Below, piece by piece: positions 13,829 through 62,079 of a DNA stretch of 64,000 nt. A model generated the notes under the pieces. That model was not told the DNA's origin, searched no databases, and saw nothing but the letters and a program-made list of their open reading frames with translations. A program made the position numbers and the translations under genes. The stretch comes from Fundidesulfovibrio soli. GTDB taxonomy: Bacteria > Desulfobacterota > Desulfovibrionia > Desulfovibrionales > Desulfovibrionaceae. The first letter of the stretch is position 1, and the number at the start of each line of letters is the position of its first letter. Where the stretch lies: assembly GCF_022808695.1 (NCBI RefSeq), contig NZ_JAKZKW010000001.1, positions 558,001 through 622,000 of the forward strand, written 5' to 3'.

Positions 13829-16309
13829 CTATTTCTTAAAGTGTTTCTTGAACCATTCGCTGTGGTGCTCGGCTGCCCAGGCCCGGCTGACCTTGCCGTC
13901 CACCAGCGCCCGCCAGGTGCCCGGGTTGGCCACCGTGCCCAGGTAGGCATGGGCCAGGGCCACGGCCACGAAGAGCACGCCGCCCACGCCGTGGATGGTG
14001 GCCAGCACCAGGGCCGTTGAGGCCGAGAGGCTCTGCTTCCAGATCAGCGGGACGCCCGTGGCCGCCATGACGAGCGTCAGGGCCAGGCTCAGCCAGAAGA
14101 AGACCTTCTGCCCGGCGTTGAGACGACCTGCCGGGGCGTGCCCGTCGTCGCCCTTGCGGCCCAGGTAGCCGCCGCGCAGTGCGAACCAGGTGCGGTCGTA
14201 GCTGGTGAACACCGCATCGCGCGCCCAGAGCGCCGCCGCGTACAACCCCGCGCCCGTGAACACCAGGCCCGCGGCCCAGTGCCAGACGATGGCCGCCTTG
14301 TAGGAGCCGAACAGTGCCTTGGCCAAGGTGGCGTTGCTGGTGAAGAACACGTAGCCCGTGGCCGCCAGCGCCATGAAGGCCAGCATGCGCAGCAGGTGTG
14401 TCCAGCGCTCGGCCAGGCCGAAGCGCTCGATCTCGCCGGGCTCGCAGCGGGCGTCCAGGCCCTTGGGCCCTTGCCCGGTGTAGTGCAGGGTCAGCAGGAA
14501 GCCCACCAGCAGGATGATCCAGCTCCCGTAGGGCACCACGGCAGCCTGGTAGAAGGCGTTCAGCCTGAAGGCGGCGTGGCTCACCCCCAGGATGCGCGCG
14601 TTGTCGGTGTACACGGGCTTGCCGTCCGGTCCGAACATGTCCGCGACCTGGCGGCCCAGGAACATGTTGGCCTTCTCGGAGTGGCAGTCCGCGCAGCCGT
14701 TCGCGCCCAGGGCCAGCTTGGCCGGAGCCACGTTGTGGTTGATGTTGAAGCCCTCCATGTGGGCCACCCAGGTCTCGTCCTTGCGAGTGACGACCTTGCC
14801 GTCGGGGCCCAGCTCATGAATCTCGCCCCCCTTGTGGTAGGCGGGGGCCACGGCCTTGAAGCGCTTGTTGCCCTTGAGCGCCTCGTTAAGGGCCGTGAGC
14901 ATCATGCCGATCTGCTCGGGGGTGTGCAGTTCCGGCTTGGCCGGGTTCTTGGCCTGCAGCTTGGGGGCGACCAGATCATAGGCCTTCTTGATCTCGCGCA
15001 TGAACAGTGGCGTGTACGTGCCGTCCGCGTCGCGGTTGGTCCAGGTGACCACCAGCAGCGGATTCACGGGCGATATCTGGCCCCGCTTGAGCAGCTGGTA
15101 GCGCGGCTCCCACTTGAATTCGGCGCCCATGCCCTTGGCCCCGATCTTGGGGTAGTTGACCATGCCGCCGCTGGTGACGTCGAAGCCTTCACCGCCGGCC
15201 CGGTTGATGGCCGGGATGTGGCAGGTCTCGCAGGCCAGCATTTCCAGGTGGCTGGGGCGGATGAAGGCGTGCTCGGGCCTGGGCGCGCCCATGTAGCCTG
15301 TGGTGTGGCAGTCCGCGCACTTCTTGATGGTGTTGTCCAGGTCGTCCCGCACGGTGGAGACGTTCTCCTGCCCCTTGGCGAAGTTGTGGTTCTTGTCCGA
15401 GGGGTGGCAGCTCACGCAGGACATGCCCCGCATGTTGTGCACGTCGTGGTTCACGCGGTCGTTCCAGGAGAAGCCGCGCTTCTTCATGTCCGACATGCCG
15501 TGGCAGAACACGCAGTTTTCGCTGGGGGGCTCGGCCGGGAAGTCCAGGGCGATCTTGCCGTCCTGATTGAAGAAACGCAGGTTGTAGCTCACCGTGGGCT
15601 GCTTGCCCTCGTCCACGAAGCCCTCCACCTGACCGATGCCGGAGGCGGCCGTGGCGGCCCAGCGGAAGTTGAGCTTCTTGAGCTGCTTGTTGCGCTCCTT
15701 GGAATTGTAGTTCGGCAGGTGGCAGATGAAGCAGTCGGCCTCCACCACGCCGGTCTTGTCCCACTGGCTCTTGAAGTAGTCGCCGTCCAGGCTGGAGGCC
15801 AGCTTGGGGTCCTCCTTGAGGCGCGCGTCGTAGCGCTTGCCGTCGCGGTCGAACTCCAGGCCGCCGCCGCCCGGGTGGCAGCCGCCGCAGCCGGGAACGC
15901 CCATGTTCTTGGCGTCCTTCTCGCCGGCAGCCGCGAACATGAAGGGGGTCATGTCGATCTGGTCGGGGTTGTCGTTGCTCTTTTTCGCCAACTGGCGAAA
16001 GGACGGGGGTCAGAACTTGCCCATCATGCCCGGGGAGAGCACCCAGGGCTTATCCTTGCTGAAATCGTCGCGGATGACGTCCCACCCTTGCTGGAAGTGG
16101 TAGCCCTTGGTGATGGCCGCGTAGTCGTGGCAGCCCTCCGCGCCGCAGGTCTGGCGGGTGGAGATGGGCTTGTCCGCGTTCTGGCCGGTTACAGGGTTGA
16201 TGACCGATCCGTCCTCGGCACGGAGCATGAACGGCGGGCAGCTCCCGGCCCAGGCGGACGACGCCGCCAGCGCCAGGAGCAGCCCAGCGAGCAGCCGCAA
16301 CGGTTTCAT
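13829..16309 (-). CDS. octahaem cytochrome c / b-type membrane fusion with in-frame TGA (predicted selenoprotein)
   Basis: One continuous 826-residue frame interrupted only by TGA at codon 100 (16012-16010), read here as selenocysteine. A signal peptide (residues 1-21, ending AWA) is followed by haem 1 with a CX4CH motif (Cys55, Cys60, His61), then GMMGKF-U-PPSFRQ. Seven CXXCH haems follow at about residues 141, 193, 266, 298, 331, 360 and 539, so eight in all. The C-terminal ~230 residues hold about five membrane helices with histidines (HYTG, WTHLL, WHWAA, IHGVGG, AHAYLG), like cytochrome b561/formate dehydrogenase gamma. GGAGGTGA precedes the ATG. The part after the TGA has no signal peptide or Shine-Dalgarno. 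Role: periplasmic electron transfer or reductase coupled to quinones; substrate unknown. Confidence 0.85.
15983..16000 (-). promoter_or_regulatory. candidate bacterial SECIS hairpin
   Basis: On the minus strand, 9 nt after the in-frame TGA, TTTCGCC-AGTT-GGCGAAA forms a perfect 7-bp stem with a 4-nt loop containing GT. In E. coli fdhF the SelB-binding apical loop also begins about 20 nt from the U of UGA and contains a critical GU. Position and loop agree. The bulged U seen in fdhF is not obvious here. Confidence 0.7.
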
Positions 16310-16313
16310 GTTC

Positions 16314-16739
16314 TCACCTCCGGTTTATGGGTGCACGCGCATCGGCGCGTCTTCTGGCGAGCATAAGCAGCGCGGCCAGCCCGATGGCCATGGCCGCGGC
16401 AAGGTGCGTCCAGTCCACGAGCATGACCGTCAGCGGGGAGAAATCCACATCCGGCAGGTTCTTGAGCACCCGGACGGCCCCCGTGAGCACCAGGACGCCA
16501 AGAAGCCAGAGCCGCGCCCGGCCCAGGGCGGCGGGACCGCCCGTCATGAGCCGCCGGGCCAGCCAGAACAGAAGCAGCGCGGCCGCTGCATAGTGCAAGC
16601 GATGGGTGAAGAAATAGTCGGCGGTCCAGCCGAAGCCGGGGATGGAGGCGATGCCGTAGCGCTTGAACACGGGCATCTGGGCCACGCCGGAGACGGCCAG
16701 CACGGCCATCGCGATCCTGTAGATCCAGGCGCTATTCAT
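16314..16739 (-). CDS. small four-helix membrane protein of the redox operon
   Basis: A 141-residue integral membrane protein with four predicted helices. Histidines sit in two helices (THRLHYAAA and DWTHLAAAM), as in b-haem or quinone-site proteins such as the membrane subunits of periplasmic oxidoreductases, but I do not recognise a named family. The start ATG at 16739 overlaps the upstream ferredoxin gene by 8 nt and has AGGGAGG upstream. The multihaem gene follows after 4 nt. It probably anchors the ferredoxin and the octahaem subunit or exchanges electrons with the quinone pool. Confidence 0.8.
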
Positions 16740-17727
16740 GGGAGCCTCCCTTGGCTTCCCTGGAAGCCAGAATCCTCTTCGTGCCTTTGAGCAGGGCCGA
16801 GGCCGCGCCCGCCAGCGGGGCCAGCAGAACGGCCCAGGCCAGCGTGTTGGAGTCGGCCATGGAATCCGCCACGGAGGCCAGGTGCGGCTTTCCCGGCCCC
16901 TTGGCCACGGCGGCTTCGAGCTTCTCGAAGGGCACGGGCGAATAGTAGATCGTGTTGGTGCCGCCGTTCTCCTCCAGGCCGTAGATGTACCCGCCCCGCT
17001 CCCTGGCCATGCGCCTGGCCGCGGCCGCCAGTTCGTTCCTGGGGCCCACGCTCTGCACGGACTGGGGGCAGGCCTCCACGCAGGCCGGAAGCTGGCCCGT
17101 GGCCACGCGGTCCTGGCAGCGGTCGCACTTGAACATCACGCCGTTGCCCGCCATGGTGGGCAGGATGTGCAGATAGAGACCCACGCCGGACTGGCGCTGC
17201 GGGATCTGCCAGGGGCAGACGTCGCGGCACTTGGCACCGCCCAGGCAGACCTCCGCGTCGATGGACACGGTGCCGCTCTCCCGCTTGGAGGCGGCCCCCC
17301 AGGGGCAGAGGTTGGCGCAGGGCGGGTTCTGGCAGTGCATGCAGCGCCTGGGGATGTGGACCTCCTTGCCGTCCACCCTGGCGCTCTGGATGAAGAGCCA
17401 GTTGTAGGGGGTCAGGCGGGTGTCGTCCCCGCGCTTGTCGGAGAAGTCCTCGTTCCTGGTACCTGGCGGCAGCAGCGTCGGCAGCGGCTTGACCGGGTCG
17501 GGGTATCTGCTGGCGTTGACCTCGCGGCAGGTTTGCACGCAGGCCCCGCAGCCTATGCATTTGCTCAGGTCCAGAAGGGTTGCGGTCTCGCCGCCGGACG
17601 CGGGCAGGGCAGCCGCGCGGGCGCGGTCCGGCAGCAGCGCCGCCGTGCCGCCAAGGCCGAGGGTTTTCAGCAGTGTTCTGCGCGTGATGCGGCTGTTAGG
17701 AGCGATGTGTTTGAACATGCCCTGCAT
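16732..17727 (-). CDS. Tat-exported four-cluster ferredoxin-like subunit
   Basis: About 331 residues, similar to FdhB/HybA/DmsB-type electron-transfer subunits. A twin-arginine signal ([14 protein letters not shown]) is followed by cysteine groups for four [4Fe-4S] clusters: [35 protein letters not shown] and CDRC followed by CVEAC. A hydrophobic segment near the C terminus ([16 protein letters not shown]) could anchor it. Starts at 17727 or 17718 are both possible and neither has a clear Shine-Dalgarno; a TTG at 17745 is less likely. It is the first gene of the operon with the four-helix protein and the Sec cytochrome. Confidence 0.88.
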
Positions 17728-17728
17728 G

Positions 17729-17744
17729 AGCACGGAACATGCCA
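17729..17744 (-). promoter_or_regulatory. possible sigma-54 promoter for the redox operon
   Basis: On the minus strand, TGGCATG-TTCC-GTGCT matches the -24/-12 consensus with correct GG-N10-GC spacing. It would start transcription at about 17718, almost on the ATG of the ferredoxin gene, which is awkward. A weaker GG-N10-GC site (17797-17784) would leave a normal leader. The sigma-54 activator next door makes a sigma-54 promoter here likely, but which site is used is unresolved. Confidence 0.4.
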
Positions 17745-17835: not shown

Positions 17836-19236
17836 ATGGATATCGGAAAGCACTGGCGGGAGATCTGCCACGCCATCCAGGAAGGCGTTTTCATCGTGGA
17901 CCCGCAGGGCCGCATCGTCATGGTCAACGAGGCCATGACCAGGCTCACCGGCTACGAGACAGGCGAGCTTGTGGGCAGGCCGTGCGCCCTGTTCGGCTGC
18001 GACTCGTGCGCCAAGGAGCGCGCCCGGGTGCGCGGGGCCTGGTGTCCGCTCTTCGCCGGGAAGGAGACGCAGGCCAAGCGCTGCCACATCCGCCGCAAGG
18101 ACGGCTCCACGCTGCCGGTGTTCAAGAACCAGTCCCTCATCCGCGACCAGGACGGGGCCGTGCTGGGCGCTGTGGAGAGCGTGCTGGACCTGACCGAACT
18201 GGACCGCCTGGACCGCAGGGTGGAGACCCTGGCCCGCCTGCTGGACCAGCCCGGCAGTTTCCACGGCATGGTGGGAAACTCGGTCCCCATGCGCAGGCTC
18301 TACGACATTCTGGAGAAGGCCGCCCGCTCCGACGCCCCGGTGCTCCTGCTGGGCGAGTCGGGCACTGGCAAGGAGCTGGCCGCCCGCGCCATCCACGAGC
18401 TGGGTGGCCGCAAGGACGCGCCCTTCGTGCAGCTCAACTGCGCCGCGCTCAACGAGAGCCTCCTGGAGAGCGAGCTGTTCGGCCACGCCAAGGGCGCGTT
18501 CACCGGGGCGCACAGGCAGCGCCGGGGCCGCTTCGAGGCGGCCCACGGGGGCGACATCTTCCTCGATGAGATCGGAGACGCGCCTCTCTCCATCCAGATG
18601 AAGCTGCTGCGCGTGCTGGAGACCAAGAGCATCGAGCGCGTGGGCGAGAACAGCCCAGTGCCCGTGGACGTGCGCCTCATCGCCGCCACCCACCAGGATT
18701 TGCCCTCCCTCATCGCCCAGGGCCGCTTCCGGCAGGATTTCTATTTCCGCATCAACGTCATCCCCATCGAGCTGCCTCCCCTGCGCCAGCGCATGGAGGA
18801 CCTGCCCCTGCTGGCCCGGCATTTCCTGGAGGCCATCGGCGCGCGCGGCGGACAGGAGATCACCGGGCTTGCCCCCGAAGCCATGGAACTGCTCATGGCC
18901 CACGGTTGGCCCGGCAACGTGCGCGAGCTGCGCAGCGCCCTGGAGTACGCGGCCGTGCTTGCCCAGTCCGGACGCATCGAGGCCCGGCATCTGCCCCCCG
19001 CCCTGCGGCGGGCCGCGTCAGTACAGGAGCCGTCCTCCTCCCCCCGTCCGATTCCGCACGCGAACGTCGCCCCGGATGCGGCTGGAGAGGCGCAAAAGAA
19101 CGCGCTGATCGAGGCATTGCGCCTATCCGGCGGCAACAAGAGCCAGGCCGCGAGGCTGCTGGGCGTGACGCGGCTCACCGTGCTCAACAGGATGCGCAAG
19201 CACGGCGTTACCTGCGGACACACGGTAGAGGGCTGA
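17836..19236 (+). CDS. PAS-domain sigma-54-dependent transcriptional activator
   Basis: 466 residues. A PAS domain (1-120) contains an unusual cysteine set, Cys50, 55, 58, 70 and 83, which suggests a redox, metal or haem sensor. The AAA+ domain has Walker A GESGTGKE (173-180), the sigma-54 contact loop GAFTGA (220-225) and Walker B IFLDEIGD. The C terminus is a Fis-type helix-turn-helix ([20 protein letters not shown]). No receiver domain is present, so sensing is within the protein. The ATG at 17836 is preceded by AGGTGG. Divergent from the ferredoxin/Sec-cytochrome operon, which it probably activates. Confidence 0.92.
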
Positions 19237-61986: not shown

Positions 61987-62079
61987 GGAAGCGTATCGTC
62001 ACCGGTGTGGCGCCTGGACTTCAAATCCAGTGGACGGCTCATCCCCGTCGGTAGGTTCGACCCCTATACGCTTCCGCCA
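61987..62079 (+). tRNA. selC: selenocysteine tRNA (anticodon TCA)
   Basis: 93 nt including the encoded GCCA. The 5' GGAAGCGTA and the 3' TACGCTTCC form the long acceptor arm typical of tRNA-Sec; the anticodon arm CTGGA-CTTCAAA-TCCAG places TCA at 62021-62023; the T arm has GGTTCGACCCC; and a long variable arm precedes it. It closely resembles E. coli selC. Reads UGA as selenocysteine. Confidence 0.97.

Follow-up and report, generated by a model that had tools for sequence, protein, structure and literature searches.

In OTR, the octahaem tetrathionate reductase of Shewanella oneidensis (structure 1sp3), the ligand of the active-site haem is reportedly Lys153, and Cys64 and Asp150 are said to line the pocket, an account attributed to Mowat et al. 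in 2004. The active-site haem of OTR takes a lysine ligand although its motif is CXXCH (PMC12285233). Selenocysteine (Sec) members of the OTR family, TIGR04315, are listed as annotated in GenBank, and the selenoenzymes described in the same review are dominated by thiol-redox, molybdenum/tungsten and nickel enzymes (PMC13188914). A Geobacter cytochrome with five haems was first proposed in PMC1914089 and later named ExtKL (PMC5877670), and a 'cytochrome c family protein' is listed in PMC9312934. Here, we analysed a window of 64,000 nucleotides from Fundidesulfovibrio soli (assembly GCF_022808695.1, contig NZ_JAKZKW010000001.1, forward-strand positions 558,001 to 622,000; 'the window' means this whole stretch, and positions are counted from its first letter). 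The subject of the study is a gene at 13829–16309 on the minus strand, predicted to encode a selenoprotein of 826 aa in which an octahaem cytochrome c is fused to a b-type cytochrome, with Sec at codon 100. An earlier note on this DNA had proposed such a protein.

Read from 16309 to 13829, the gene is a single frame of 826 codons whose sole stop is the TGA at codon 100 (16012–16010), as the earlier note had described for codons 1–99 and 101–826. The standard code splits this frame into an open reading frame (ORF) of 99 aa and another of 720 aa that starts from the TTG at 15991, and it is these two ORFs that favour a two-gene reading, in which the TGA ends a 99-aa haem protein and the TTG starts a separate cytochrome. 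By eye, the upstream ORF has a signal peptide, together with haem 1, and the downstream ORF, with seven CXXCH motifs, has none, though its haems need export; this argues against two genes. The haem layout given in the earlier note, with one haem before the TGA and seven CXXCH after it, stood except in one respect: the first of the eight motifs in the full product (16147–16127, CGAEGCH) is not a plain CXXCH but an expanded CX4CH. The Fundidesulfovibrio rows have CGAEGCH or CGAQGCH as this motif, four further rows also have a CX4CH, and most relatives have a plain CXXCH. The octahaem domain comprises residues 24–590 (14540–16240, minus strand) and is followed by a cytochrome b561/FdnI-like membrane domain at residues 626–826 (13832–14434, minus strand). 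The latter scored above the Pfam cut-off for PF01292 (E 6e-15) and slightly below the cut-off for TIGR01583 (105.9 bits vs 115.85), and in the full AlphaFold model it matched FdnI (1kqf_C) with a Z of 20.6 and an rmsd of 2.7 over 200 residues in VIA-align.

The nearest named relative is that of Fundidesulfovibrio agrisoli (L009), with 95% identity. In a sample of the order, 7 out of 297 genomes had a relative at E ≤ 1e-30, five of the seven belonging to the same genus, the window's own genome included, and a sixth Fundidesulfovibrio genome in this sample had no relative at that threshold. In a sample of the phylum, a relative at E ≤ 1e-40 was found in 50 out of 395 genomes. Desulfobacterota are represented among the rows bearing the TGA, as are Ammonifex thiophilus (Bacillota) and an Eisenbacteria metagenome-assembled genome; Desulfoluna limicola is another such row. 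In the first set of relatives, the site is covered by 23 rows, a figure that counts the window's own row and one repeat, and there is an exact TGA in 20, TGT in two and a gap-shifted TGA in L007. The 29 loci L025–L053, two of them repeats of earlier loci, comprised 18 with TGA, four with Cys (L037–L040) and seven with neither. Eight of these 18 TGA codons fell in the same BLAST column and ten, all of group B, were gap-shifted; in a MAFFT alignment of 37 rows (U printed as C), the TGA and Cys codons of groups A, B and C share a single column, nine of the ten gap-shifted loci being covered. At the site, group B reads PGQYGGRWU or RYU, and L037–L040 read PGNYGGNWC. Cys homologues aligned at position 100, which the earlier note had set beforehand as the test of its proposal, were therefore found, with a TGT codon in both copies of L019 and in L037–L040.

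These relatives bear directly on the two explanations that dispense with Sec. The Cys relatives run through the site as single ORFs, and the in-frame stops that were read are TGA in 39 out of 39 cases (36 distinct sequences), never TAA or TAG; both facts, like the hairpin carried at synonymous sites that is described below, speak against two genes. A lone in-frame stop is also the usual sign of a sequencing error or a pseudogene, but the same TGA is present in separate genomes of at least three phyla, and on either side of it dN/dS was far below 1: in five comparisons it was 0 to 0.39 before the TGA (first 22 aligned codons excluded) and 0.12 to 0.41 after. By these ratios, purifying selection is acting on both sides of the TGA. 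On the strength of the fused Cys frames, the all-TGA pattern and dN/dS, we rejected both explanations, two genes as highly improbable and an error or pseudogene as having next to no chance of being correct.

In a tree built from 44 rows, of which 31 have Sec, six Cys and seven neither, these states require three changes, with Cys in two separate places. The tree left out L007, L008, L009, L016, L023, L024, L025, L029 and L032; in it, group B and the group lacking Cys and Sec meet through their long branches, and support for the Sec side of group B is only 82/71. The seven rows with neither residue (L045 and L047–L052) formed one side branch. They are shorter octahaem frames of 604–650 aa from which the b domain seems to be missing, as judged by length. 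The earlier note had named homologues without Cys or Sec at this site as evidence against its proposal, and such homologues do exist, in this one side branch.

A putative bacterial Sec insertion sequence (SECIS) lies directly behind the UGA. The sequence TTTCGCC-AGTT-GGCGAAA at 16000–15983 (minus strand), 9 nt past the TGA, forms a perfect 7-bp stem whose AGTT loop begins 16 nt past the UGA, so that the description in the earlier note is borne out. Among the Sec genes counted (L008, L009, L024, L025, L029 and L032 left out, kinship ignored), the loop bases were AGTT in 34 out of 34, and at least four consecutive pairs adjoined the loop in 33. All seven pairs were present in 24 out of 29 Arg-type genes. 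The distance from the UGA to the start of the loop was 16 nt in 23 genes and 22 nt in the other 11. Five genes encode PQL in place of RQL, and four of them retain a stem, with the pairing displaced by one step (CCGC...GCGG), L007 being the one that does not; in the Ammonifex hairpin, one pair is altered on both sides, from T-A to C-G. The Leu codon within the hairpin is TTG in 37 out of 38 readable Sec frames (repeats included, kinship between rows ignored; L007 was restored for this recount, and L024 is cut before the codon), and in 32 of these genes TTG makes up 10.6% of all other Leu codons. In five of the six Cys genes the loop or the stem, or both, are gone. In one Cys copy, L019:5872-8415 (TGT), the AGTT loop survives together with five pairs of the stem, which probably reflects a recent change from Sec to Cys. 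Codon-preserving shuffles, from which L007, L008, L009, L023, L024, L025, L029 and L032 were left out as cut, split or repeated (TTG 32/32 in the remaining rows), gave a mean z of −1.60 in 32 Sec rows, −0.45 in six Cys rows and −0.46 in seven others. Judged by these comparisons, a SECIS-like hairpin directly behind the UGA is under selection.

Some results count against reading UGA100 as Sec. The window's own hairpin is unexceptional for its codon usage (z −0.85 in the shuffles), and only 12 out of 32 Sec rows were singly below 0.05, vs one of six Cys rows and one of seven others. The Leu codon of L007 is TTA and its stem is poor, an Rfam search around the TGA gave no match, and the seven eight-haem relatives of the side branch do without Cys or Sec at the site.

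The genome has the machinery for Sec. Two programs found selC, the gene for tRNA-Sec, at 61987–62079 on the plus strand of the window (one gene), as had been claimed; as it lies 46 kb from the cytochrome gene, it lends support at the level of the genome and is no operon partner. In addition, selA, selB and selD of the genome scored above their profile cut-offs, with selA and selB sharing one contig. The selD gene (L104) has an in-frame TGA, and its product is probably a selenoprotein too. Taking together the kept TGA, the Cys at the same aligned site, the AGTT hairpin, the TTG bias and selA, selB, selC and selD, the 826-residue product is almost certainly a selenoprotein in which UGA100 is read as Sec.

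What this Sec might do is suggested by the fold of the octahaem domain. AlphaFold gave a mean pLDDT of 82.5 for the full protein and 86.5 for residues 24–590. The model of the haem domain matched OTR (1sp3) in VIA-align with a Z of 11.7 and an rmsd of 4.2 over 329 of 436 residues, the runner-up having a Z of 3.8, and the full model matched it with a Z of 11.3 and an rmsd of 4.5 over 337 residues. OTR was retrieved by VIA-align alone: Foldseek did not list it for either model at E ≤ 0.001, and sequence searches of the PDB yielded 1kqf for the b domain and weak, NrfA-like matches for the haems, and did not retrieve OTR. Comparison of alignments by hhalign joined our family (A1, 37 rows) to the OTR family (A2, 25 rows) with a probability of 99.3% and an E of 2e-20, haems 2 to 7 being matched in order. 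The first row of A2 (L087) aligned with 1sp3 at an E of 4e-153, so that, by counting, its Cys90, Asp176 and Lys179 are Cys64, Asp150 and Lys153 of 1sp3. Through these two alignments, Asp274 and Lys277 of the window protein match Asp150 and Lys153 of OTR, and they are conserved in 34 and 36 out of 37 rows, respectively. As modelled, the protein is an exported octahaem domain with the OTR fold, anchored by an FdnI-like b-type domain. Membership of TIGR04315 itself was rejected, since the window protein scored 40.8 bits vs a cut-off of 375; of eight relatives, seven scored 31 to 54.4 bits and one gave no match, all below that cut-off.

Sec100 and OTR Cys64 both lie between haems 1 and 2, and at both positions some relatives have Cys and others Sec. 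Of the best 25 OTR-family loci read in the window's phylum, 13 (L081, L084, L085, L089, L091, L094, L095 and L097–L102) have a TGA at the Cys64 position, within N(N/S)F(C/U), which indicates that Sec is common in the OTR family as well. The distance from the His of haem 1 to the Sec/Cys is 39 or 41 residues in the 37 rows here vs 34–41 in 34 OTR-like proteins (L116–L117 left out, as was L109, where Cys is missing from the site), and an H-[aromatic] pair precedes the Sec/Cys by 29 or 31 residues here vs 22–29 in the OTR-like proteins. Sec100 is probably equivalent to OTR Cys64 on these sequence comparisons. Against this, the spacer from the Sec/Cys to haem 2 is 31–41 residues here vs 8–23 in OTR-like proteins, hhalign leaves the region of Sec100 unaligned or, when coverage is forced, pairs Cys64 with other residues, at no confidence, and the ten-residue block around Sec100 is less sure in the models (pLDDT 75 in the full model, 64 in that of residues 24–590). 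L109, a distant OTR-like protein, reads STFA at the Cys64 position, showing that the site can be lost in the OTR family too. At L065:4221-5912 (minus strand), the window's genome has another OTR-like octahaem gene, this one of the Cys type (NDYC); it too is below the TIGR04315 cut-off and lies near further multihaem and b-type-looking cytochrome ORFs.

We somewhat favour the view that the gene encodes one selenoprotein, a menaquinol-linked periplasmic reductase in which Sec100 takes the role of Cys64 at the active-site haem. UGA100 would be decoded as Sec through the AGTT hairpin directly behind it and SelA, SelB, SelD and the selC tRNA. Menaquinol would be oxidised at the b domain, and electrons would travel through the chain of haems as far as haem 2, which would have Lys277, the equivalent of OTR Lys153, as its axial ligand. 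The selenolate of Sec100 would lie in the open pocket of haem 2, where OTR has Cys64, and could attack or bind the substrate. This would most likely be an oxyanion of the sulfur type that contains an S-S or similar bond, and the transient Se-S adduct would then be reduced by electrons from the haems. The chemical model for this proposal is TsdA, in which a Cys at the haem forms a covalent cysteine-thiosulfonate, that is, an S adduct (PMC5146829). The earlier note had suggested that Sec100 is a distal haem ligand or a catalytic residue; we likewise infer such a role, and the modelled OTR fold sharpens it. More specifically, and only tentatively, Sec100 could bind a Lys-ligated haem 2 reversibly as an axial ligand, or act as the nucleophile in its pocket, making the protein a quinol-driven haem-selenium reductase without a thioredoxin fold, molybdopterin or nickel. 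If so, selenolate at a haem would be in use in two far-apart octahaem branches, those of the c/b fusions and of OTR, and Se and S would be exchanged in each.

It is also conceivable, if rather unlikely, that this real selenoprotein is an electron-transfer cytochrome with no substrate of its own, wiring menaquinol to other carriers, in which Sec100 serves as an axial ligand or as a redox selenol remote from the active site. CbcL-type c/b fusions are electron-transfer cytochromes, and the protein is likewise a c/b fusion with a quinone-type domain. Moreover, the invariant His residues outside CXXCH number only six (H71, H291, H308, H347, H354 and H525) for eight haems, so that two haems need other axial ligands, and the failure of hhalign to put Sec100 opposite Cys64 points the same way. 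A role in electron transfer alone is harder to reconcile with the OTR fold, the retention of Lys277 and Asp274 and the existence of relatives that, by length, have no b part. The exchange of Sec and Cys, which is usual at catalytic positions, argues against it as well.

Three genes make up the operon. The cytochrome gene is adjoined by one for a 141-aa membrane protein, hydrophobic by eye (16314–16739, minus strand), in the five Fundidesulfovibrio genomes that have the cytochrome gene, the window's own included; this protein gave no Pfam or NCBIfam match. Next comes a gene for an HmcB/HybA-like 4Fe-4S protein with a twin-arginine (Tat) signal (16732–17718, minus strand; signal and start read by eye, the longest ORF starting from 17745). 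No catalytic subunit of formate dehydrogenase was seen among the three genes. Upstream of the operon is a sigma-54-like promoter, TGGCAY-N6-TGC (17730–17744, minus strand), and beyond it a divergent regulator (17836–19236, plus strand), predicted from its translation to be a sigma-54 enhancer-binding protein and retained in Fundidesulfovibrio relatives. The count of the promoter motif in the window alone is at chance level, which tells against it, and the motif gains weight only from its same position before the iron-sulfur gene in five out of five intergenic regions of Fundidesulfovibrio, of which two come from genomes that are close relatives. In Fundidesulfovibrio, a second route for electrons to the proposed reductase may be provided by the Tat-exported 4Fe-4S protein and the small membrane protein, under sigma-54 control.

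Thirty proteins, hand-picked within about 5 kb of the relatives, were considered as neighbours. DsrE adjoins the group A genes in L015 and L072, and the Ammonifex neighbour is an FAD/4Fe-4S/FlpD protein that is HdrA-like by reading of its domains. In groups B/C, ArsR, ArsP and thioredoxin domains are near L074, LMWPc, ArsC-like by reading, is near L075 and L077, with a chromate transporter also near L075, and a TauE exporter is near L073. Across the groups, the neighbours have sulfur, thiol, arsenic and chromate functions; several have none of these, and no partner is common to all. These neighbours loosely fit thiol, sulfur or metalloid oxyanion substrates, but as they differ between groups, the substrate is a guess, which counts against the favoured explanation.

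No family in NCBIfam (June 2026) was above its cut-off for the protein, and no entry in the 2026 table of 119 selenoprotein families, as far as PMC13188914 was available, fits a c/b fusion; the table lists ExtKL and TIGR04315, and its nearest entry is the OTR-family selenoproteins. This agrees with the earlier note, which had not recognised an established family. The available parts of PMC13188914, PMC5877670, PMC9012536, PMC2628731 and PMC3971608 contain nothing on a Sec-containing octahaem c/b protein, the subscription literature being mostly outside this survey. The protein apparently represents a new, uncatalogued selenoprotein family within the wider OTR-like octahaem group. Since the standard code cuts such genes at the TGA, the enzyme would be hidden from ordinary annotation. 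If the favoured mechanism is true, selenium would here work in a chemically new setting, as part of a residue that lies in the active pocket of a multihaem reductase. The Sec, Cys and neither versions among the relatives make the contribution of selenium directly testable.

Among the known systems, TsdA serves as a model for the mechanism only, being a di-haem protein with which no homology is claimed. FdnI (1kqf_C) shares the b domain, and the part that is catalytic in our proposal is a multihaem domain. ExtKL of Geobacter (NF040886) is, like the window protein, an exported multihaem c-type selenoprotein of a related lineage (PMC5877670), but its CXXCH motifs number five and lie in the N-terminal part (PMC1914089); membership of NF040886 was rejected, as no match was obtained at E ≤ 10, a search in which the HMMER filters drop most matches above about 0.1. 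The Ohc complex of Desulfovibrio (ohcBAC), compared by description only, likewise combines octahaem c, iron-sulfur and b-type parts with a divergent sigma-54 regulator, and ohc operons in six Desulfovibrionales genomes have the same arrangement of sigma-54 promoter and divergent regulator (PMC4641369); the difference is that here c and b are in one chain, with Sec. On this comparison of layout and regulator type, the gene was not assigned to Ohc. OTR and TIGR04315 share with the window protein the eight haems, the fold, the equivalents of Lys153 and Asp150 and a Cys-or-Sec position between haems 1 and 2, whereas the protein described here has a fused b-type domain, a longer spacer to haem 2 and the motif PGMMGKFU-PPSFRQLAKK in place of N(N/S)F(C/U).

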